Shown here: piece after piece, positions 13,463 to 39,060 of the stretch
How positions within the stretch are numbered: position 1 is the stretch's first letter
Layout: each line of letters begins with the position of its first letter
Made by a program: the position numbers and the translations under genes
Notes under the pieces: model-generated
What the model was told of the DNA's origin: nothing
Seen by the model: the letters and a program-made list of their open reading frames with translations, nothing else
Database searches by the model: none
DNA from: Candidatus Moraniibacteriota bacterium
GTDB taxonomy: Bacteria; Patescibacteriota; Minisyncoccia; Moranbacterales; UBA9337
NCBI GenBank assembly: GCA_029865125.1
Contig: JAOUHN010000005.1
Location: 1 to 39,060 of the forward strand
Reading direction: 5' to 3'
DNA: 39,060 nt

Positions 13463-13879
13463 TTATTCTCCTTTTGGTCTTTTTGCACCATATTTTGATC
13501 GCCCTCTCTTTCTTCCGTCTACTCCAGCAGTGTCCAAAACTCCACGCACAACGTGATAACGCACACCAGGAAGATCTCTTACTCTTCCTCCACGAATCAT
13601 TACGATTGAGTGTTCTTGAAGATTGTGTCCAATCCCAGGGATATATGCTGTAACTTCCATTCCATTTGTAAGTCTTACTCTTGCAATCTTTCGAAGTGCT
13701 GAGTTCGGTTTTTTCGGAGTAGTAGTTTTAACACTAAGACAAACCCCTCTTTTAAACGGTCCCTGTGAGTCAATTGGCTTATTCTTCAAAGTGTTGAAAA
13801 CATAAGTCATTGCAGGAGATTTTGATTTTCTGCTTGCTGTTTTTCTTGGTCTTTTCTTTAGTTGGTTGATTGTTGGCAT
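13463..13879 (-). CDS. rpsL: 30S ribosomal protein S12
   Basis: [65 protein letters not shown]. Confidence 0.99.
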
Positions 13880-14138
13880 TAAATTCCTGAAACATAGAAC
13901 ATGGAGTGTAGAACAAAAATGCTATCGCAAATTCATTCCAATCCACAGGATCTATTTACCTATTTATAAATTGATTACAATACAAAAAATTGCTATTTGA
14001 CTAGCGAATACTATATTACACAAAGATACAGAAATTGTCAAATGAAATTTAGTCGAAAGTCTATAAAGTCCTTAAAGTCGAAAGTCTGTAAAGTTAAAAG
14101 AAGATTCAATATCACAAATCAAATATCAAAACAAAGAC

Positions 14139-14320
14139 ACTGTCATCCTGAACTTGATTCAGGATCCCGAAATTTTAGCACATAAAACATAAAGCATGGA
14201 ACATATGACACATAGCATGGAGCATATAACATGGAACATATAACAAAAAACACTGTCATCCTGAACTTGTTTCAGGATCCCGAAATTTTAGCACATAAAA
14301 CATAAAGCATGGAACATATA
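14139..14320. repeat. Two direct copies (113-bp offset) of a REP-like palindrome with AT-rich tail
   Basis: cactgtcatcctgaacttg(a/t)ttcaggatcccgaaattttagcacataaaacataaagcatggaacatat at 14139 and 14252. Confidence 0.85.
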
Positions 14321-14337
14321 ACACAAAAATTCAACAA

Positions 14338-14376
14338 AAAAACAGAGGCGAGCTTGATATGTATCAAGTCCGCCTC
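14338..14376 (-). terminator. Rho-independent terminator of the GC-rich cassette
   Basis: GAGGCG (14345-14350)/CGCCTC (14371-14376) with inner CTTGAT-ATGT-ATCAAG; followed on the minus strand by TGTTTTTTT. Confidence 0.85.
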
Positions 14377-14394
14377 AAATGCATGGATATGGCT

Positions 14395-14459
14395 GCGCTT
14401 TTCCTAGGATGCGATCATCCTGGAAACATTAACAATGCATTACCTGTTAATGCCAGCGC
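14395..14459 (-). ncRNA. Putative structured 3'UTR / small RNA with three-way junction
   Basis: GCGCT (14395-14399) pairs AGCGC (14455-14459), enclosing TTTCC-t-AGGATG/CATCCT-GGAAA (14400-14426) and CATTAACA/TGTTAATG (14427-14452). Confidence 0.55.
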
Positions 14460-14466
14460 CAACGTT

Positions 14467-15018
14467 TTATGCCATTAAATTTAAGCCGCCGCCGGGGATT
14501 GCGAAATGAGTATGACCCGGAATGTAGGTTGTTCCGCTTCCGATTTGGATGGCAGATGCGTCCACGAGCTGGGCGAAATCACCTCCCTGAGATCTCAGTG
14601 CATCGGAAAAGGTTTGAGTTGCAGTAAGGGCGTTTCTTGTTTTGACCAATGAAAAGTTTTCCGGAGCAGCCATGGGGAGAGAATGGGCAGAATCGATGAA
14701 CATGCAATGTCCGGAAATTGCGTTCGGGTTTACATCCTCGCAAACACGCAACGCGTCACCCCCTTGATTTACCGCGGCAGAGAACTGACCCAACTCCAGG
14801 TCACCTTGAATTGAAACCGCACCGGTATAGTGGCATGCGCTGCAATTTGATTCAGCACCACTCGCACTCAGAACCGGACAACCGTCGAACGCCGCCAGCA
14901 CCGAGCCGGGCGCCACCGCAAACATCATTGCCAGAATCATGGCCAGCCAAGGCCATTTTGCAATTAACTTCTTCACGTGTTCCTCCATCTCAATAATGGT
15001 TAACGTTTTTAGCAGCAC
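14467..15018 (-). CDS. Secreted protein with a c-type-heme-like CxxCH motif
   Basis: GTG start 6 nt after GGAGG; signal peptide LAMILAMMFAVAPGSVLA; NCSACHYTG. Composition visibly richer in GC than neighbours. Confidence 0.75.
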   Translation of the reverse strand: MLLKTLTIIEMEEHVKKLIAKWPWLAMILAMMFAVAPGSVLAAFDGCPVLSASGAESNCSACHYTGAVSIQGDLELGQFSAAVNQGGDALRVCEDVNPNAISGHCMFIDSAHSLPMAAPENFSLVKTRNALTATQTFSDALRSQGGDFAQLVDASAIQIGSGTTYIPGHTHFAIPGGGLNLMA

Positions 15019-15082
15019 GCCTTACCTCCTTTTGTGTTGCACTGCGTTGATTTGAAGAACTGATTTGTTTTAACTTACCTCA

Positions 15083-15112
15083 ATGATAGCGCGGAATAAA
15101 TGTATTTGTCAA
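15083..15112 (-). promoter_or_regulatory. Sigma70-like promoter of the cassette
   Basis: Minus strand TTGACA - 18 nt - TATCAT. Confidence 0.6.
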
Positions 15113-15214
15113 ACGGGAATCATGAAGCACACAACATAAAACACATAACAAAAGGCAAGGCCTTTGCCTTGCACTATGCACTCATGTTATATGTTGCGTG
15201 TTATATGTTATGTG

Positions 15215-15772
15215 TTACATACTTTTGAGTTCCCTCGAAACCTTCTTGCAATCAGGAACAGCCAGTGAAACCAATTTCCAAAAACGCCTGCTGTGATTCA
15301 TTTCTTTCAAATGACAAAGTTCATGCACAATCAAATAATTCACCATGTGTTCTGGCAAAAAGACGATTCTGAAATTGAAATTCAAATTCTTTTTTGAAGA
15401 GCAACTCCCCCACCTAGTTTGCTGATTGCGAATGCAAATCTTATTATATTCAAAATGATACACCTCATTTAACTCTTTCAATTTAGACTCGACCAATTTC
15501 CTCGCATCCTCTTTGTGCTCAACATAGTCCTTTTCTGTTTTTTGAAAAAACAAACTCTCTTTTCGCATATTCTCCATCTCTCTTTTTTTTCTCAAAATCC
15601 AAGCCGCTTTCTTGAAGATGAAATTTTCAATATTCCCAATTCCCAGCCACCTCGGAGCCACCACCGTCAAAGCACCTTCACAGCAAACCATCAGACGCAT
15701 GTTTTTTGCTCTTGCATTCTCTCTTAGAGTGTATTCGATTTTATTCCCTTCTAGCATAATTTCTCTTTTCAT
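15215..15772 (-). CDS. YgjP-like (DUF45) metallopeptidase
   Basis: NQQTRWGSCSSKKNLNFNFRIVFLPEHMVNYLIVHELCHLKEMNHSRRFW. Confidence 0.93.
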   Translation of the reverse strand: MKREIMLEGNKIEYTLRENARAKNMRLMVCCEGALTVVAPRWLGIGNIENFIFKKAAWILRKKREMENMRKESLFFQKTEKDYVEHKEDARKLVESKLKELNEVYHFEYNKICIRNQQTRWGSCSSKKNLNFNFRIVFLPEHMVNYLIVHELCHLKEMNHSRRFWKLVSLAVPDCKKVSRELKSM

Positions 15773-29683: not shown

Positions 29684-32600
29684 TTACATCGGAGGAGCAA
29701 CACTGAGATCGTTCACTTCAACAATCCACCAGTTAAACTCAATGTTGTGATCCACAGGGCTGTCTACTTTCACTTCAAAACTTTCTTCATCCACCACGGT
29801 TCCAACATATGGAGCTTGTCCTCTTGTAGAGCTTGTTGGTGTGATGTAGATGTTGCTGTTTGGTCCAACTGCCTTTGTTTGAACAATAGCGCTTACTGCC
29901 CCTGTCACAATCGGAAGTCCTGTCACATCATCAATCCAGTTAGCATCTTCGTCAACTGGCATCGCTTCGCCAGTAGTATCTTCAAGTCCATCAGTATCTG
30001 CGTCAACTGGAATGTGAACACCACTACAATCATCCAAACCATCAGCATCAGAATCAAGTGGCAAATATCCACAGATCATTCCTTGTCCAATTGTTGGAGC
30101 AGTATCGTCCACAATTTTGATTGTAAGAAGTCCTCCTTCAATACTCACTACCTCAATCTTTCCGCTCAAGAAAACATTTCCGTCAATATCTTGAGTCACG
30201 AAACCATCAGTGTCCAGTGCAAGCATAAAATCAACCAGAGCTTGAGTTTGAATCTTCAAATTGTCAATTTCAGCAAGTTGAGCTGAAACATCAGCCTCAA
30301 GCGCTGTGATTCTGTCATCTTGAGTAGTATCCAAAAGATTAATGTCTCCGATTTCACCAGAAACAACTGCAAGTTGAGTATCCACTAAAGCTTGAAGCTC
30401 ATTCACTGTAGTTGCATTTGCATCAGTCTGAAGTCCAATCTCATCAATTACAGTAGCTTTCTCATCAATAATTCCTTGTTGCTCCTTAATCGCTTCCACC
30501 AAAAGACCAGATGTTTCACCATAGTTAATTCCATAATATCCATCCCCTCTGTCAAAAACCAACTCAGGCATCTGAGGAAGAACCTCTTGAGCAATCATAC
30601 CTGTCATTCTTCGATCATTATTTGGATCAATCCAGTTATATGTCACACCACGCATGTTCATAACTCGATCCAATGCATTGTCAATTGTTAGAATATCCCT
30701 TTTTAATCTTTCATCAGAAGTAGCTACAGTCAGGTCACCACTTCCTGAAATATTAATATTAGCACTATATGAAGGACCAATCGTGTCTCGAACTCTAACC
30801 TCACCATTAACATCCAAATGATTATCCGCTCCAGCACCACTCCAATTATCAGCAATAACAACTCTTCCCTCGTTCGCATCTCCACTTGCCTGAGATGCAT
30901 CGATCCATAAAATTGGATCCACGGTATTTAGTGACCAATATTGAAGATCCCTAGTTAAAAAATTAGAATTAAATTGCAACCTATCATTATATTGATCGTA
31001 AGCAATTTTAATATTCTCGCCAGAAAGCCCTAAGTTCAATTCCCCTTGAATATATGCATTCCTCCATCGAAGTGAATCTGATCCTAGATCCTTAACATTA
31101 TTAGAGCTAGGAAAAAGAGAACTTGTAATAGTTAAATTAGTACCATCGTTATACAAATACTGACCAGTATTATTTTGAAAATACACATAATCATCTACCA
31201 TTAATTGACCAAAAACGTTCAATTTTGCAGCAGCAGTCGCAGTCGCTCCAATTCCAACATTATTCAAACCTGCATCTAGATGAAGTAGGTTGGTAGTGGT
31301 TCCATTAAACGTCACATCCTCATCAGAAAGCCCTGAATTGAAAAGAACATTCATTGTTCCTCTGTCAATAATATACTCATCTGTACCACCGTTAACACCA
31401 AGAATAATCCTGTCATATAAATACAAATCCCTCCACCTTACATCACTTGTGCCAACATCAAATCCAAGTCCGGATGGCTCAATATCTCCAGTTCCAAAAG
31501 TATAATCATCATTCACTTCATCATATGACAAATAATATGAAACATAGTTAGTTCCAAATCCAATCTTTCCTCCTCTTGCAAAAATTCCTCCATTAACATC
31601 CAATGATCCATAACCAGGAATAATTCCAACTCCCACCTTATCAGCTGAAACATCAACATATAAATCATTATTTCCAATATTAATATCGTCAGAAATTTTT
31701 GCAGTACCAGTAACATCCAAATCAGCACTTGCCACTGTTCCACCATTAATCACCAAACCAGTGTTATGTGGATCCCAGGAAAGCACTGCATTATTCGCTT
31801 GAACCAAATTATCATGTTGGAATACGATTCCATTATCGCTATATGAACTTGGTGTGTCTGTCAGATCCAAGAAACTTGTTGAACTTCCTCCCTCAACAGC
31901 AAACGTCACCCAAGTTGTTCCATCATACATCTTAAATTTCCCTAATGAATTAACATAGAATTCACCTTTTTGATTTGAGGTTGGATCTCCTGAATTTGAA
32001 GGAAGAATCTTGAGTGATGCCTTCGTTGCAGTAGCTGTTCCAACATTCAAAAGAGCAGTCATTGAAGCGCTAGCAATATTAACACCCACTTCATTGTTTG
32101 CTGAATCCACTCTAAACATGTTGTCAGTAGCATCAACAACCACATCACCAACCACATCAAGTGCAACAGATGGATAACTCTTTCCAATTGATAATCTCTT
32201 ATTTACAGAATCAATGTGCACAGCAGGTAAGGTCTTGGCCTCATCAGCATATGCAATGAAATCTCCCGCAGTTGTCAACAGATTAGAATTTGGATTATAT
32301 GAGAATGGAGCTTCCCCTGCAACAGTATTGCCGTCCATCCAATAGGTAACGTATCCCCACGCAGGAGTTCCTGAAATGTCCACTGTTCCTCCAGCACCTC
32401 CTGTCAATTCATTCCAACTTGTTCCATCATACATATACAAATTTGAATCTACTGAATTCAAAAAGATGTCTCCGAGTACCGGTGATGCTGGTTGTGATCC
32501 TTGTCTGATTCTAAGAGATGCAATACTTGTTGTTGATCCTTTAACATCCAAAAATGCTGCTGGATTTACTCCGATTCCAACTCTGCCAATATCATCCACA

Positions 32601-35600
32601 GTGAGTGCTGGGGTTGAATCCCAACTATTTGCAAAAACATTCATTCTGTCATCATTATTACCAGGCAATGTTGAAAATGCTGTTGGAGCAGTTGTGAGAG
32701 TTGTTGCCTTAATTCTTACCCAAAATGCAGAAGTTCCATTCACTGATGTTTGAGTCCAATCTACTGGCTCGGAAAAAGTAATTGTTCCATCAACTGAAAG
32801 AGATGAGGTGTTATCAGTTTTTGTCAAAGCTGTCCATGCACCATTATAATATTCCACACTCAATGTAATTCCAGATCCAGCTGTGTCGAAATCAAAATAT
32901 ATTTCATTAAATTTAATATCATCACCAACATAGAAATAATCATTAGTATCAGCCAAAACAGTATACACTACTCCTTGTTCAGTTCTTGCTTTTTCTGTAT
33001 TGTTTGTATAAGTTGAACCTCCATCAAAATTTAAAACTGAAGAAAATCTTCTTGTATTTGAAATTGTTATCACAGCTCCTGGGGCAGCCTTTCCAATTCC
33101 CAAATATCCATTATCTTGAAGGATTAGATCTGTATTTGCAAAATAATCTTTAACAGTCATTTTGGCTGGCAATCTTTCTGGTGTAGTATCATTAGCAACA
33201 TCTGAAAAAGCAGTGTTTACTTCTAGTGATGTATTGCTATGGATTGCAGTAACTGTTCTTATTTCACCACTCACTCTCAACCTATCTCCAACTGCAATTT
33301 GTGTTGTAAATGATGTTCCCACTCCAGTCACCACATTTGTTGCTCCATCGGGATCGATACTTCCGGTTATAAGTGAGATGTCATTTCCCTTAACATTCAT
33401 TTTTCCATTGATATCCAATGTCGCTGTTGGAGTAAGAGTTCCCATTCCAAATCTATTATTTGCTTCGTCATATGCAAAGCTTGAACCAAAAATTATTGAT
33501 CCTTTAGTTGCATTTGAGGTTGAGCTTAAAATCAAATCATCTCCTGCTTCAGTTCCACCAATCAAAGTTTGTCCTCCAATTCTTCCTGCAAGAAGTGCGT
33601 ATTGAGTATGATCATCATCACCCTTTCCACTAAGACTTCCATGATCCACATCTCCCAAGTTTCCACTTGTAATTACTGTTCCATTTGCATCTGGGAAAAT
33701 ATATACTCTGTCATCTGTCAAATTACCAATATCCAGAGTTCCATAGAACGCATCCCCAATAGATTCTAAAATTTTCAATTCACTTAGAGCATTGTTTAAA
33801 ACAATATCATATTCACCACTCTGAATCCAATCACTATCTGTAAGATTTCCCAATTCCAATGTAATGCTTCCTGCTCCATTTATCACCTTAATTCCATCAT
33901 TGCTTCCTCCAACTCCAAGTCCAGAATTGATCGTGGTCAATGTGTAATTCTCTCCAGCGGTGCTTCCTACTAAAATTTGACCATCAGTTGGAAGTGTAGC
34001 TAGTCCTGTTCCACCACTTCCTACTGGAAGTGTTCCTGAAACATGTGCATTAAGTCCAACTTTACCCCAAGTTGGTGTTGTTCCTGAAATCAAAACATTT
34101 CCACTAACAGCAGCGCTGAGTGCTGAAATTGTATTTGCAGCAGAAGCATACAAAATATCACCAGTAGCGACAGTTGAAAGACCGGTTCCACCAGCTGTCA
34201 CAGGAAGTTGTCCAGTAAGATCAGTTGAACTCAAAGAAATTCGATCAAATGTAAATGATTGAGTTCCAGCAGTAAAATCAACATAGCCAACTGCATTTGT
34301 TTCTGTCACAGCAGCTGCTGCATGAATATCATCAGTAATCGCCAATTCTCCGGCTGTGGTTGGAAGTGTCAAAATGAGATTACCTGTATGAGCAGTAGAC
34401 TTAAGTTCAATATAATCTGTTGTCTCTGTTCCACTACTGAATCTCAAATATGATCCTTTTCCATCAGTTCCATCAAAACAAGCTCCATATGTACAATCTC
34501 CAACAGCAGTAATATCACCCGCTCCCGCACCTCCACTCACATCTGCCCATGACAAATTATTTGTAGGGCCCATCATCAATACTTGACCCTCATTTCCAGT
34601 AGCTGTTGGAAGGGTATATGTGATATCTACAGATTGATCACCTCCTTGAAAAGTTGTTGTTTTTGTTGGAGTTGTCCCACCTTCCAAAATCTTCAATGCT
34701 CCATTTAGTAGCACATCTGGATTTGTCACAGTATTTCCAAATGTAATCAACTCTGAATCAACAGTAGTGTCAATATTGATGTAGTTGTTATTTGATGGAT
34801 CCTCAATAGCCCAAGCATTGGTACCTATTGGAAGATTATCAAGAACAAGCATTCCACTAGCCACTGGAAGATTGATTGTGACATTTCCAGTGTATGCTGT
34901 GGATCCAAGTTGAATGTAGTCACTAGCCCCTGTTCCACTACTGAATCTCAAATATGATCCTTTTGTATCTTCCCCAGTGAAACACGCTCCTCCAGTACAA
35001 TCTCCAACTCCTTCAACATCTCCAACTCCTGAAACTCCTGAAACAGTTGCCCAAGAAAGGGTTCCTGCTGAATTTACTTGCAATACCTGATCATTTTCAG
35101 GAGTATCAATAGGAAGGGTATAAACTAGATTTCCCGCCTGATCACCCGCCTTGAATATTGTTGTAAATTCTGGACTTGCTCCACTCTCCTTGAATGACAA
35201 AACACCCTCAATTTGAACAATTGTTCCATCTGTTCCTAGGCTCTTGTCTCCCAAAACAATAGACTCTGCATCATTTGTTGTGTTGATCACAATATAATCA
35301 TTAACATCCTCTCTTACATACCATGCGGCGCTAGTGTGATCTACTAAGTCTGGAACCAAAGCATCATCCCAATCAAGATCTCCCGTGCTACTTGTCAATC
35401 TCAAGAATTGTCCAGAAGCTCCATCATCAGCAGGTAGTGTGTAGGTTGTACTTTCTGTCATCGTTGCGTGTGGTGTGAATGTCACGGAAAAGTCAGTTAC
35501 TCCTTGTTCGGAATAAATCACCAATGATCCATCTTGATTATTTGCTCCTAATGTTATCTTCCCTCCATTGATTGTTAAGTCTCCTGTTAGAGTTGCGTCT

Positions 35601-38600
35601 CCCACATTTGCATTATCAGTTATTGAAAATAATGTGTTTGTTCCGTCTCTAAATACAATACTTCCTGTGTCAGCCACATCAATATTGAAAGTTGTTTCAT
35701 CTGTTGCAATAACTCCATTATTTGCATTCAAGTTTCCCTCCACTGTCAACGCTCCTCCTATTGTAGTTGTCTTTGTTCCCAAGAATGAATAAGTTGGACT
35801 ATCAACTGTTGCATTTCCAAATGAGATATTCTCTGATCCATTAGTAGTATTAATGTTGATGTAGTTATTCGTACTCTCTTGAATATCTAATGCATTGGCC
35901 TGGTTATCAACCAAAGCTGAAACCACGGCACTTGCCCATCCAAGATCTCCTGTGCTACTTGTGAGTTTCAGAAATTGACCACTCACTCCATCATTAGCAG
36001 GAAAAGTATAAACGGTATTTTCTGTCATTGCGTCATGAGTTTTGAGTGTCACAGAGTAATCACTTGGACCTTGCTCAGAATAAATCACCAGCACTCCATC
36101 TTTACCATTTACACCTACATTAAGAGTTCCCCCTCCGACTGTTAATGCAGTATCCGTAATAGTCACCACTCCTGTTCCAATTGATCCAGAATCTATTGTA
36201 AGATTTCCATCTGAAGTAATTTGATCTCCATTCACCGCAAGTACTCCGTTTATTGTCATAGCTCCTGTTAGGGTTGCGTCTCCCACATTTGCATTATCAG
36301 TTATTGAAAATAATGTGTTTGTTCCATCTCTAAAAACTATATTTCCTCCAGTTGCAGGCACATCGATGTTTAGTGTTGATGATGTAGTGGTGATGTCCCC
36401 ACCGTTTACTGCTAAGTCTCCAGCAATTGTTACTGCTTTGTTTCCCAAAAATGAGAATGTTGGATTAATACTAGTATTTCCAAAAGAAATATTCTCTGAT
36501 CCTATTACAGTACTAATATTAATGTAATTCTTTCCATTTTCATCCTCAACATCAAAAGCGTCCAATTGATTAACAGCTAGAACTGATGACGTAATATCCT
36601 CCCATGTTAGATTTCCACTGGCATCTGACTGAAGGAATAGTGAACCATTTGATGGAGTGCTTGCAGGGAATGTATAAGTTGAACTCTCAGTCATTGTTGT
36701 GTGTGGTGCAAATGTCACGGAAAAGTCAGTAGTTCCTTGCTCGGAATAAATCACCAAAGAACCGTCTTGACCATTAGCTCCTAATGTTGCTTGTCCTCCA
36801 CTAATTGTCATGTCACCTGTCAAAGTTGCATTTCCTGTGTCTGCATTATCAGTTATTGAAAATAATGTATTTGTTCCATCCCTAAAAACTATACTTCCCC
36901 CTGTAGCAGGAACATCAATGTTCAAAATGGATTGATCTGTCACAATGCTTCCACCATCTGCATTCAAAACCCCTTCGATTGTCAAGGCTCCTCCTATTGA
37001 AGTTACTCCTGTTCCCAAAAATGCAAAACTTGGATTAGCACCCGCGCTTCCAAAAGAAATGCTCGGTGCTAAGGTGTTGATGTGAATATATTCATTTGGA
37101 ATCGTGTCAGCAATGACCATCGCATTAGCATCACCAGTATTCAATTCCGCTGTCAACACTGATTGCCATGTCAAACTTCCGGTTAAATCTGATCGGAGGA
37201 ATTTTGGACTGTCCGTAGGATAGTTATCAGGAAGAGTGTATGTTGTGCTTTGTGTCATTGAAGAGGTGGAAGGCCTGAAAGTCACAGTGTGGTCAGTGAC
37301 ACCCTCTTCAGAATAAATCACCAAATTTCCATCTTGATTATTCTTTCCAATGGTTATTGTCCCTCCTCCCACTGTCAAGTTATCATCTGCAATGTCTATC
37401 ACTGATCCTGCTCCTGATGCATTAATTGTAAAAGTTGTTCCAGAAGAAGAAATTTGATTTCCGTTCACTGTAAGAGTTCCGCTTATTGTCATGTTTCCAG
37501 TAGATCCAACATCCGCAATTGAGAACATTGAATTGGATCCATCTGTGAAATCAAGTGTTCCAGACACTGCATTTGAAATTGTCATTCCATTTCCAAATGT
37601 GATGTCATTTCCAGACACTATCAAATCTCCACCGAATGTCGCTGCTTTGTTTCCCAAGAATGAAAATGTTGGATTAGTAGTTGCGTTTCCAAATGAGATA
37701 TTTTCTGATAGGTCGGTTGTGTCAATATTGATATAGTTATTTGTGTTTTCATGCACATTAAGTGCGGTTGCATTAGCATCAGGTATTGATGATGTCAAAG
37801 CATGTGCCCAAGTCAATGTTCCTGTTCCATTGGTTTGCAAGAAATATGTATCAGTCAAAGAATCTGGGAGAGTGTATGTAATGTTATCACTCATAGAATC
37901 ACTTGGGTTAAATGTCACAGCATAATCAGTTGTGAGTGTATCAGAATAAATCACCAGCGATCCACTGTGTCCATTGGATCCAAGTGTCGTAGTTCCACCA
38001 TTTATTGTCACATTTCCACTAACTGTCATATTTCCTGTGGATCCAGCATCTATAATCGAGAACATTGAATTTGTTCCATCTGTGAAATCAAGTGTTCCCC
38101 CATTCGCATTTGAAATCTTCATCGCATTTCCAAAAGTAATGTCATTTCCACTCACCAAAACATCTCCACCAAATGTTGCTAGCCCACTGCCCAAGAATGT
38201 GAAATATGGATCATTAGCAACATTTCCAAAAGACATAATTTCTGCTGCAGTATCAATATTGATATAATTCTGAGACAAATCATCTCTGATTTGAAGAGCA
38301 GAACTTGAGTTGCTGTTAATTGTACTCAAAAGCACTGTTCCTGTTTGATCTGGGAAGGTATAAGTCCTATCTGTTGTCAAATCTCCAACATTAAGTATTC
38401 CATAATATGTTTCTCCTGATGATTCCATAATCCTAAGATTACCACTTGCATTTCCCAAAGTCACAACTCCTGCATCATCCACAGAGAATACTGAAGAAGC
38501 TCCTACCTGTGCATCAAGAAGAAGGGATGTTCCTGGGCTCAACGTGTCAGTCTTTGAAATCAAAAGTCCCGTATCATTTCCAGCTGCTTTGTTGGTTGTG

Positions 38601-39060
38601 TAATTCAACTGCATCGCAAACTCATCTCCAGTTGCAGCACTTAGAGTTTCAGTAAGAGTGAGTCCTCCGGTAATGTCCAGAGAATCACTCAATTTGAATC
38701 GGTCCGTTGTTGTTCCATCAAAATAGAAAGTTTCTGCGTTTGTGTTTCCGAATTGAAGAGTGATGTCCACAGCTGCAGCATCAGAAGCGTTTCCAAGAAT
38801 AAACGTTGTTTGATTTGTTCCGGTATCAGTATTTTGAGTGTGCATTGAGCTGGTTGTAGTACAAACTATTCCATTAGTTGTGGAGTATGTACAAATCTGT
38901 CCATCCGTAAGTATTCCAGATGAAACCAACACTGTCCCTGTTCGATCTGGGAATGTGTAAGTTGTATTAGCACTAAGATCTGTCACATCAAAAGTTCCAT
39001 AGAAACTTTCTGCTACTCCTGATCCTTTAATTTGCAATTGACTGTCTGCATTATCAAGAA
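29684..39060 (-). CDS. Giant repetitive surface/tail-fibre-like protein with peptidase S74 chaperone domain (5'-truncated by window)
   Basis: Frame open to the window edge (LDNADSQLQIKGSGVAES...). Repeats GxLVIYSEQG...TYTLP...LxW and ENISFGN...FSFLG; S74 SDERLKRDILTIDNALDRVMNMRGVTYNW...GMIAQEVLPQMPELV. Confidence 0.93.
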   Translation of the reverse strand, partial: LDNADSQLQIKGSGVAESFYGTFDVTDLSANTTYTFPDRTGTVLVSSGILTDGQICTYSTTNGIVCTTTSSMHTQNTDTGTNQTTFILGNASDAAAVDITLQFGNTNAETFYFDGTTTDRFKLSDSLDITGGLTLTETLSAATGDEFAMQLNYTTNKAAGNDTGLLISKTDTLSPGTSLLLDAQVGASSVFSVDDAGVVTLGNASGNLRIMESSGETYYGILNVGDLTTDRTYTFPDQTGTVLLSTINSNSSSALQIRDDLSQNYINIDTAAEIMSFGNVANDPYFTFLGSGLATFGGDVLVSGNDITFGNAMKISNANGGTLDFTDGTNSMFSIIDAGSTGNMTVSGNVTINGGTTTLGSNGHSGSLVIYSDTLTTDYAVTFNPSDSMSDNITYTLPDSLTDTYFLQTNGTGTLTWAHALTSSIPDANATALNVHENTNNYINIDTTDLSENISFGNATTNPTFSFLGNKAATFGGDLIVSGNDITFGNGMTISNAVSGTLDFTDGSNSMFSIADVGSTGNMTISGTLTVNGNQISSSGTTFTINASGAGSVIDIADDNLTVGGGTITIGKNNQDGNLVIYSEEGVTDHTVTFRPSTSSMTQSTTYTLPDNYPTDSPKFLRSDLTGSLTWQSVLTAELNTGDANAMVIADTIPNEYIHINTLAPSISFGSAGANPSFAFLGTGVTSIGGALTIEGVLNADGGSIVTDQSILNIDVPATGGSIVFRDGTNTLFSITDNADTGNATLTGDMTISGGQATLGANGQDGSLVIYSEQGTTDFSVTFAPHTTMTESSTYTFPASTPSNGSLFLQSDASGNLTWEDITSSVLAVNQLDAFDVEDENGKNYINISTVIGSENISFGNTSINPTFSFLGNKAVTIAGDLAVNGGDITTTSSTLNIDVPATGGNIVFRDGTNTLFSITDNANVGDATLTGAMTINGVLAVNGDQITSDGNLTIDSGSIGTGVVTITDTALTVGGGTLNVGVNGKDGVLVIYSEQGPSDYSVTLKTHDAMTENTVYTFPANDGVSGQFLKLTSSTGDLGWASAVVSALVDNQANALDIQESTNNYININTTNGSENISFGNATVDSPTYSFLGTKTTTIGGALTVEGNLNANNGVIATDETTFNIDVADTGSIVFRDGTNTLFSITDNANVGDATLTGDLTINGGKITLGANNQDGSLVIYSEQGVTDFSVTFTPHATMTESTTYTLPADDGASGQFLRLTSSTGDLDWDDALVPDLVDHTSAAWYVREDVNDYIVINTTNDAESIVLGDKSLGTDGTIVQIEGVLSFKESGASPEFTTIFKAGDQAGNLVYTLPIDTPENDQVLQVNSAGTLSWATVSGVSGVGDVEGVGDCTGGACFTGEDTKGSYLRFSSGTGASDYIQLGSTAYTGNVTINLPVASGMLVLDNLPIGTNAWAIEDPSNNNYINIDTTVDSELITFGNTVTNPDVLLNGALKILEGGTTPTKTTTFQGGDQSVDITYTLPTATGNEGQVLMMGPTNNLSWADVSGGAGAGDITAVGDCTYGACFDGTDGKGSYLRFSSGTETTDYIELKSTAHTGNLILTLPTTAGELAITDDIHAAAAVTETNAVGYVDFTAGTQSFTFDRISLSSTDLTGQLPVTAGGTGLSTVATGDILYASAANTISALSAAVSGNVLISGTTPTWGKVGLNAHVSGTLPVGSGGTGLATLPTDGQILVGSTAGENYTLTTINSGLGVGGSNDGIKVINGAGSITLELGNLTDSDWIQSGEYDIVLNNALSELKILESIGDAFYGTLDIGNLTDDRVYIFPDANGTVITSGNLGDVDHGSLSGKGDDDHTQYALLAGRIGGQTLIGGTEAGDDLILSSTSNATKGSIIFGSSFAYDEANNRFGMGTLTPTATLDINGKMNVKGNDISLITGSIDPDGATNVVTGVGTSFTTQIAVGDRLRVSGEIRTVTAIHSNTSLEVNTAFSDVANDTTPERLPAKMTVKDYFANTDLILQDNGYLGIGKAAPGAVITISNTRRFSSVLNFDGGSTYTNNTEKARTEQGVVYTVLADTNDYFYVGDDIKFNEIYFDFDTAGSGITLSVEYYNGAWTALTKTDNTSSLSVDGTITFSEPVDWTQTSVNGTSAFWVRIKATTLTTAPTAFSTLPGNNDDRMNVFANSWDSTPALTVDDIGRVGIGVNPAAFLDVKGSTTSIASLRIRQGSQPASPVLGDIFLNSVDSNLYMYDGTSWNELTGGAGGTVDISGTPAWGYVTYWMDGNTVAGEAPFSYNPNSNLLTTAGDFIAYADEAKTLPAVHIDSVNKRLSIGKSYPSVALDVVGDVVVDATDNMFRVDSANNEVGVNIASASMTALLNVGTATATKASLKILPSNSGDPTSNQKGEFYVNSLGKFKMYDGTTWVTFAVEGGSSTSFLDLTDTPSSYSDNGIVFQHDNLVQANNAVLSWDPHNTGLVINGGTVASADLDVTGTAKISDDINIGNNDLYVDVSADKVGVGIIPGYGSLDVNGGIFARGGKIGFGTNYVSYYLSYDEVNDDYTFGTGDIEPSGLGFDVGTSDVRWRDLYLYDRIILGVNGGTDEYIIDRGTMNVLFNSGLSDEDVTFNGTTTNLLHLDAGLNNVGIGATATAAAKLNVFGQLMVDDYVYFQNNTGQYLYNDGTNLTITSSLFPSSNNVKDLGSDSLRWRNAYIQGELNLGLSGENIKIAYDQYNDRLQFNSNFLTRDLQYWSLNTVDPILWIDASQASGDANEGRVVIADNWSGAGADNHLDVNGEVRVRDTIGPSYSANINISGSGDLTVATSDERLKRDILTIDNALDRVMNMRGVTYNWIDPNNDRRMTGMIAQEVLPQMPELVFDRGDGYYGINYGETSGLLVEAIKEQQGIIDEKATVIDEIGLQTDANATTVNELQALVDTQLAVVSGEIGDINLLDTTQDDRITALEADVSAQLAEIDNLKIQTQALVDFMLALDTDGFVTQDIDGNVFLSGKIEVVSIEGGLLTIKIVDDTAPTIGQGMICGYLPLDSDADGLDDCSGVHIPVDADTDGLEDTTGEAMPVDEDANWIDDVTGLPIVTGAVSAIVQTKAVGPNSNIYITPTSSTRGQAPYVGTVVDEESFEVKVDSPVDHNIEFNWWIVEVNDLSVAPPM

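Follow-up and report, generated by a model that had tools for sequence, protein, structure and literature searches.

A GC-rich, probably foreign gene for a predicted secreted orphan protein lies upstream of rpsL in a Moranbacteria genome, at a site shared with a second genus

Introduction

CPR bacteria get by with small gene sets and rely on other cells, and little is known of what they export to their surfaces. Several described systems resemble the locus reported here in part. Single-heme c-type cytochromes, like the protein studied here, combine a signal peptide with one CxxCH motif (in this case CSACH); unlike them, our protein matches no cytochrome family and is encoded in a genome in which no maturation proteins were found. 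Integron gene cassettes are likewise compact single-gene units with a structured tail; however, the unit described here carries its own promoter and terminator. Inspection of the unit by eye gave no convincing attC-type site. PEP-CTERM proteins normally need an exosortase. Those found without one in the same order as our genome share with the present protein a small size, predicted export, a single-gene unit and the lack of the expected processing enzyme, and most of their units exceed their flanks in GC content, as does ours; however, our protein has neither the motif nor any family resemblance to them.

The locus lies in a Candidatus Moranbacteria (CPR) draft genome (G000; 1.03 Mb in 72 contigs, estimated 92% complete with 2.55% contamination), on contig 29, which is our window, the whole 39,060-nt stretch that was analyzed. 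An earlier note had described in it a GC-rich, self-contained unit for a secreted CxxCH protein and had suggested recent horizontal acquisition. Drawing on the directly observed anatomy, composition, lack of PF01578 and ResB matches, and same-site counterparts, we favor, with moderate confidence, the view that this is a single-gene cassette for Sec-dependent export, likely derived from a higher-GC bacterium, at a site upstream of rpsL that is shared with another genus.

Results

The cassette occupies positions 14338 to 15115 (about 775 bp) on the minus strand, as established by reading both strands, and sits between rpsL and ygjP, inside AT-rich repeats (Table 1). The elements expected from the earlier note, namely, a promoter-like sequence of the sigma-70 type, a signal peptide, the CSACH motif, a folded 3' untranslated region, and a strong terminator, were all located. 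Promoter-like matches are not above chance in the region (4 against 3.8 expected), and terminator-like matches are (5 against 1.2 expected). The GGAGG Shine-Dalgarno (SD) sequence and GTG start that had been described are both present, but there are two SD/start pairs, and the signal peptide starts at the inner one. We prefer this inner GTG, at 14976, because the signal peptide then falls at the very N terminus; it is preceded by GATGGAGGAACAC, and its 169-aa product begins with MKKLIAKWPWLAMILAMMFAVAPGSVLA, followed by AFDG. The predicted mature protein has about 141 residues and five cysteines and contains one CSACH.

Table 1. Features of the cassette, its surroundings, and its counterparts (window positions unless a locus is named)
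Feature	Position	Strand	Basis or remark
rpsL (S12), next gene downstream	13463..13879	-	Own promoter near 14041-14013
AT-rich repeat array with REP-like hairpins	14122..14336		Dispersed through the genome
Intrinsic terminator, GAGGCGGACTTGATACATATCAAGCTCGCCTC then T-run	14336..14376	-	Folding and sequence; strong hairpin
Folded 3' untranslated region, predicted three-way junction	14377..14466	-	z = -3.0
Preferred ORF, 169-aa orphan secreted protein	14467..14976	-	GC3 0.52; no family
Long ORF form, 183 aa, from GTG 15018	14467..15018	-	May serve as in-frame leader
CSACH motif, the sole CxxCH	14830..14844	-	Sequence; position by script
Signal peptide, MKKLIAKWPWLAMILAMMFAVAPGSVLA	14893..14976	-	Read from sequence, predicted
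Second SD, GGAGG, 5 nt ahead of GTG 14976	14982..14986	-	Sequence
First SD, AAAGGAGG, then GTG 15018	15025..15032	-	Sequence and pattern match
Promoter-like TTGACA-18-TATCAT	15083..15112	-	11/12 consensus positions
AT-rich repeat array, other flank	15116..15235		Degenerate repeats
YgjP-like metallopeptidase, gene upstream	15215..15772	-	Directly adjoins rpsL in genome G002
G009 secreted-protein gene upstream of rpsL	L073:4513-5031	As cassette	GC3 0.52
G005 secreted-protein gene upstream of rpsL	L100:772-1266	As cassette	GC3 0.57

The 3' region as a whole (14335-14480) folds with a z score of -4.1; with the terminator left out (14377-14470), the z score is -3.0, and none of 200 shuffled sequences was equally stable. 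Neither the leader nor the 3' untranslated region matched Rfam, even at E values up to 1, and no further copies of the cassette were found in its own genome. Of the 153 GGAGG-led ORFs scored in the sampled genome, none showed a second SD (AAGGAGG) 20 to 75 nt ahead of its start; the cassette's own pair, in which both starts share one frame, is left out of this count. As a genome-wide marker, the double SD was rejected: 14 of 190 genomes match, which is not far above a reversed-pattern control. The anatomy suggests that the gene would be transcribed by itself and translated from GTG 14976, possibly with coupling to the upstream SD and GTG, and that the protein would be exported via Sec and then either set free or retained on the cell surface, where it may act toward neighbors or hosts.

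The distinct composition that had been reported for the unit was borne out. In 500-nt windows its GC content peaks at 0.534, compared with a mean of 0.366 (standard deviation, 0.036) over 663 kb of sampled sequence from this genome (approximately 65% of it), where only six islands have a GC content of 0.48 or more. The GC3 of the ORF exceeds the genome mean of 0.33, its codon-usage z score is about -6.4 to -6.9 (7th by z score, or 11th per codon, among 603 ORFs), and its codon preferences run counter to those of fusA and rpsG. Composition and codon use are thus both atypical, as in horizontally acquired genes. The most GC-rich island sampled, stronger than the cassette, is L108:16601-20000 (G000:C69:56601-60000), which encodes an AAA_33/KTI12-like kinase, a radical SAM-like protein, and others and looks like a mobile element; a milder GC-rich pair with a bpMoxR ATPase lies at L103:6186-8631 (G000:C3).

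The AT-rich degenerate repeats noted earlier on both sides are indeed present, and, together with REP-like hairpins (TGTCATCCTGAACTTGATTCAGGATCCC), they are scattered over more than 60 sites of the genome. Such repeats, the step in composition, and the contamination estimated for this draft genome would be compatible with a short foreign contig misjoined into a Moranbacteria contig at the repeats. We judge a chimera of this kind to be unlikely, since exact matches between the junction regions and other sampled sequence of the genome (65% sampled) are no longer than 35 nt, neither end of the unit is truncated, and comparable GC-rich secreted-protein genes occupy the same site in two other genomes. 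Elsewhere in the window, a very long, repetitive ORF of 3117 aa (29684-39037) lies at one contig end, and its C-terminal part resembles an intramolecular chaperone domain by eye; at the other contig end, a tandem 67-nt repeat (8-264) overlaps a tRNA-Ser gene.

The protein had been said to match no recognized family, and searches of Pfam, NCBIfam, PHROGs, and PDB agree with this. Beyond the protein itself, no relative was detected in its own genome or among 143 relatives, and no match was found in plasmids, phages, viral contigs, or 85,462 species (one genome each), in collection scans that require a short near-exact peptide and that distant relatives would escape. A weak profile match in genome G398 (19.7 bits) was judged to be due to chance. 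AlphaFold prediction was uninformative for the cassette protein (pLDDT, 36), and for both this protein and the alignment of its counterparts, described below, confidence was too low for structure searching.

The region upstream of rpsL was surveyed in 29 genomes, in a few of which the contig ends too soon (for example, G006 and G019). A GC-rich orphan secreted-protein gene was found there in only two others, Candidatus Moranbacteria bacterium GW2011_GWF2_35_54 (G009) and G005, which are two species of one other genus in the same family as the window genome; in other members of the order this place is mostly taken by an M50 protease gene or by unrelated genes. The rpsL promoter region just downstream is conserved in all three genomes. 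Like the cassette, the G009 and G005 genes have the same orientation, an upstream AAAGGAGG, a second SD ahead of a signal peptide, and their own terminator; they belong to no known family, have similarly high GC3, and belong to the strongest codon-use outliers within the sequence sampled from their respective genomes. The two proteins are homologous to each other (36% identity), and their genes have promoter and terminator sequences in common. Unlike the cassette protein, they contain no CxxCH, their promoter and terminator sequences differ from those of the cassette, and sequence similarity to the cassette protein was not detectable: profile comparison gave a probability of 1.3%, with the signal peptide alone aligned. 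Homology of the leaders was also rejected, as the similarity between the window and G005 or G009 lay within the range of shuffled sequences, and that between G005 and G009 was clear. The upstream SD of G005 leads a separate 10-codon frame (VLPKQFIHLT and a stop; L100:1266-1330), whereas in the window and in G009 the corresponding start is in frame.

We read the site upstream of rpsL as either shared by descent or repeatedly filled, on the evidence of position and layout. Because the sequences are dissimilar, the argument for a shared origin of the cassette and the G005 and G009 genes is one of position and architecture, drawn from only three genomes, in which two of the genes are homologous to each other. 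One version of descent is that the cassette is a native, fast-evolving Moranbacteria gene, orthologous to that of G005 and G009, whose GC-rich codons are kept by selection. The site, orientation, and double-SD layout are the same in two genera, and G005 and G009 keep their promoter, terminator, and high GC3 at so low a protein identity, which indicates that high GC persists over long divergence. However, the profile comparison gave no homology, no such gene was seen in the remaining family members whose locus could be read, and the codon use of the cassette runs against that of fusA and rpsG; we consider a native origin less likely than import.

One CxxCH follows the signal-like N terminus of the cassette protein, as in single-heme c-type cytochromes, and exported CxxCH proteins are rare in this genome (three ORFs in the 663 kb sampled, including the cassette protein). 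The earlier note had read the motif as one for c-type heme attachment and had proposed a search for ccm and ccs genes. PF01578, which covers CcsA, CcmC, and CcmF, was found neither in the host genome, at its estimated 92% completeness, nor in the other nine genomes of the family, and ResB (PF05140) was not found in the host genome, in which, at that completeness, a missed locus is possible. Among 20 relatives, the sole PF01578 match is on a small contig (L042; G013:C210) of an assembly in 250 contigs with 5% contamination, and it may be contamination. Of the two remaining exported CxxCH proteins, one is identified by Pfam as a T4SS pilin and one carries a thioredoxin-like CPHC motif, and hence CxxCH does not mean heme here. 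The cassette protein showed no similarity to cytochrome c families in Pfam, NCBIfam, or PDB. Since PF01578 and ResB were not detected and an exported pilin also has CxxCH, the heme reading is not supported: it is unlikely that this is a c-type cytochrome or heme protein in this cell, and a single-heme cytochrome that works either here or after transfer to a host is a very improbable alternative. For the cysteines, a role in disulfide bonding or metal binding is most likely.

Of 57 genomes of the order, 14 encode PEP-CTERM proteins that score above the curated cutoff. Exosortase was detected in one of the 57, itself PEP-CTERM bearing, leaving 13 of the 14 without a detectable exosortase as judged by one family model in incomplete genomes. 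Several PEP-CTERM genes form single-gene units with GC content above that of their flanks, and one in G009 (GC content, 0.50) comes with promoter-like and terminator-like sequences of its own. Some are unremarkable in GC3, and recent import is therefore not apparent for every one of them. PEP-CTERM loci were noted at L187 to L204 (order-level relatives) and at L163:3556-4179. The cassette protein has no PEP-CTERM motif (no Pfam match, and no PF07589 match in G000). A literature search combining PEP-CTERM or exosortase with CPR or Patescibacteria found no report of such proteins without exosortase in the collection of papers covered.

Discussion

The cassette is likely of foreign origin, as its composition, its codon use, and the absence of relatives indicate, and acquisition from a higher-GC bacterium is the most likely route; no donor was identified in the collections scanned. 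Of the recent horizontal acquisition proposed in the earlier note, the foreign origin stands; however, the word "recent" is weakened, because another genus has an equally GC-rich gene in the same place, something not predicted by a single recent event. The earlier note had named orthologues with ordinary composition at the locus as evidence that would count against acquisition; none were found, and the counterparts in G005 and G009 are themselves GC-rich. The cassette sits directly before the rpsL promoter, and a GC-rich gene for an orphan secreted protein is likewise maintained at this position in at least one further genus of the family. What is new, and of greater interest, is this sharing of the site with a second genus, seen in three genomes.

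The PEP-CTERM proteins in genomes without a detectable exosortase suggest, but do not prove, that the order has repeatedly acquired genes for secreted proteins without the machinery that processes them. It can be envisioned, as a speculative and rather doubtful extension, that Moranbacteria repeatedly capture single-gene units for exported proteins, without processing machinery, from Gram-negative neighbors or hosts and keep them at preferred sites such as that upstream of rpsL, so as to present envelope proteins resembling those of the host on the cell or release them, the cassette being one such unit.

In such genomes, a CxxCH motif should be read as a cytochrome only with caution. A site with foreign-looking genes for exported proteins in two genera, along with the PEP-CTERM proteins of genomes in which exosortase was not found, would offer a means of finding out with which neighbors these bacteria exchange genes and what they display to them.
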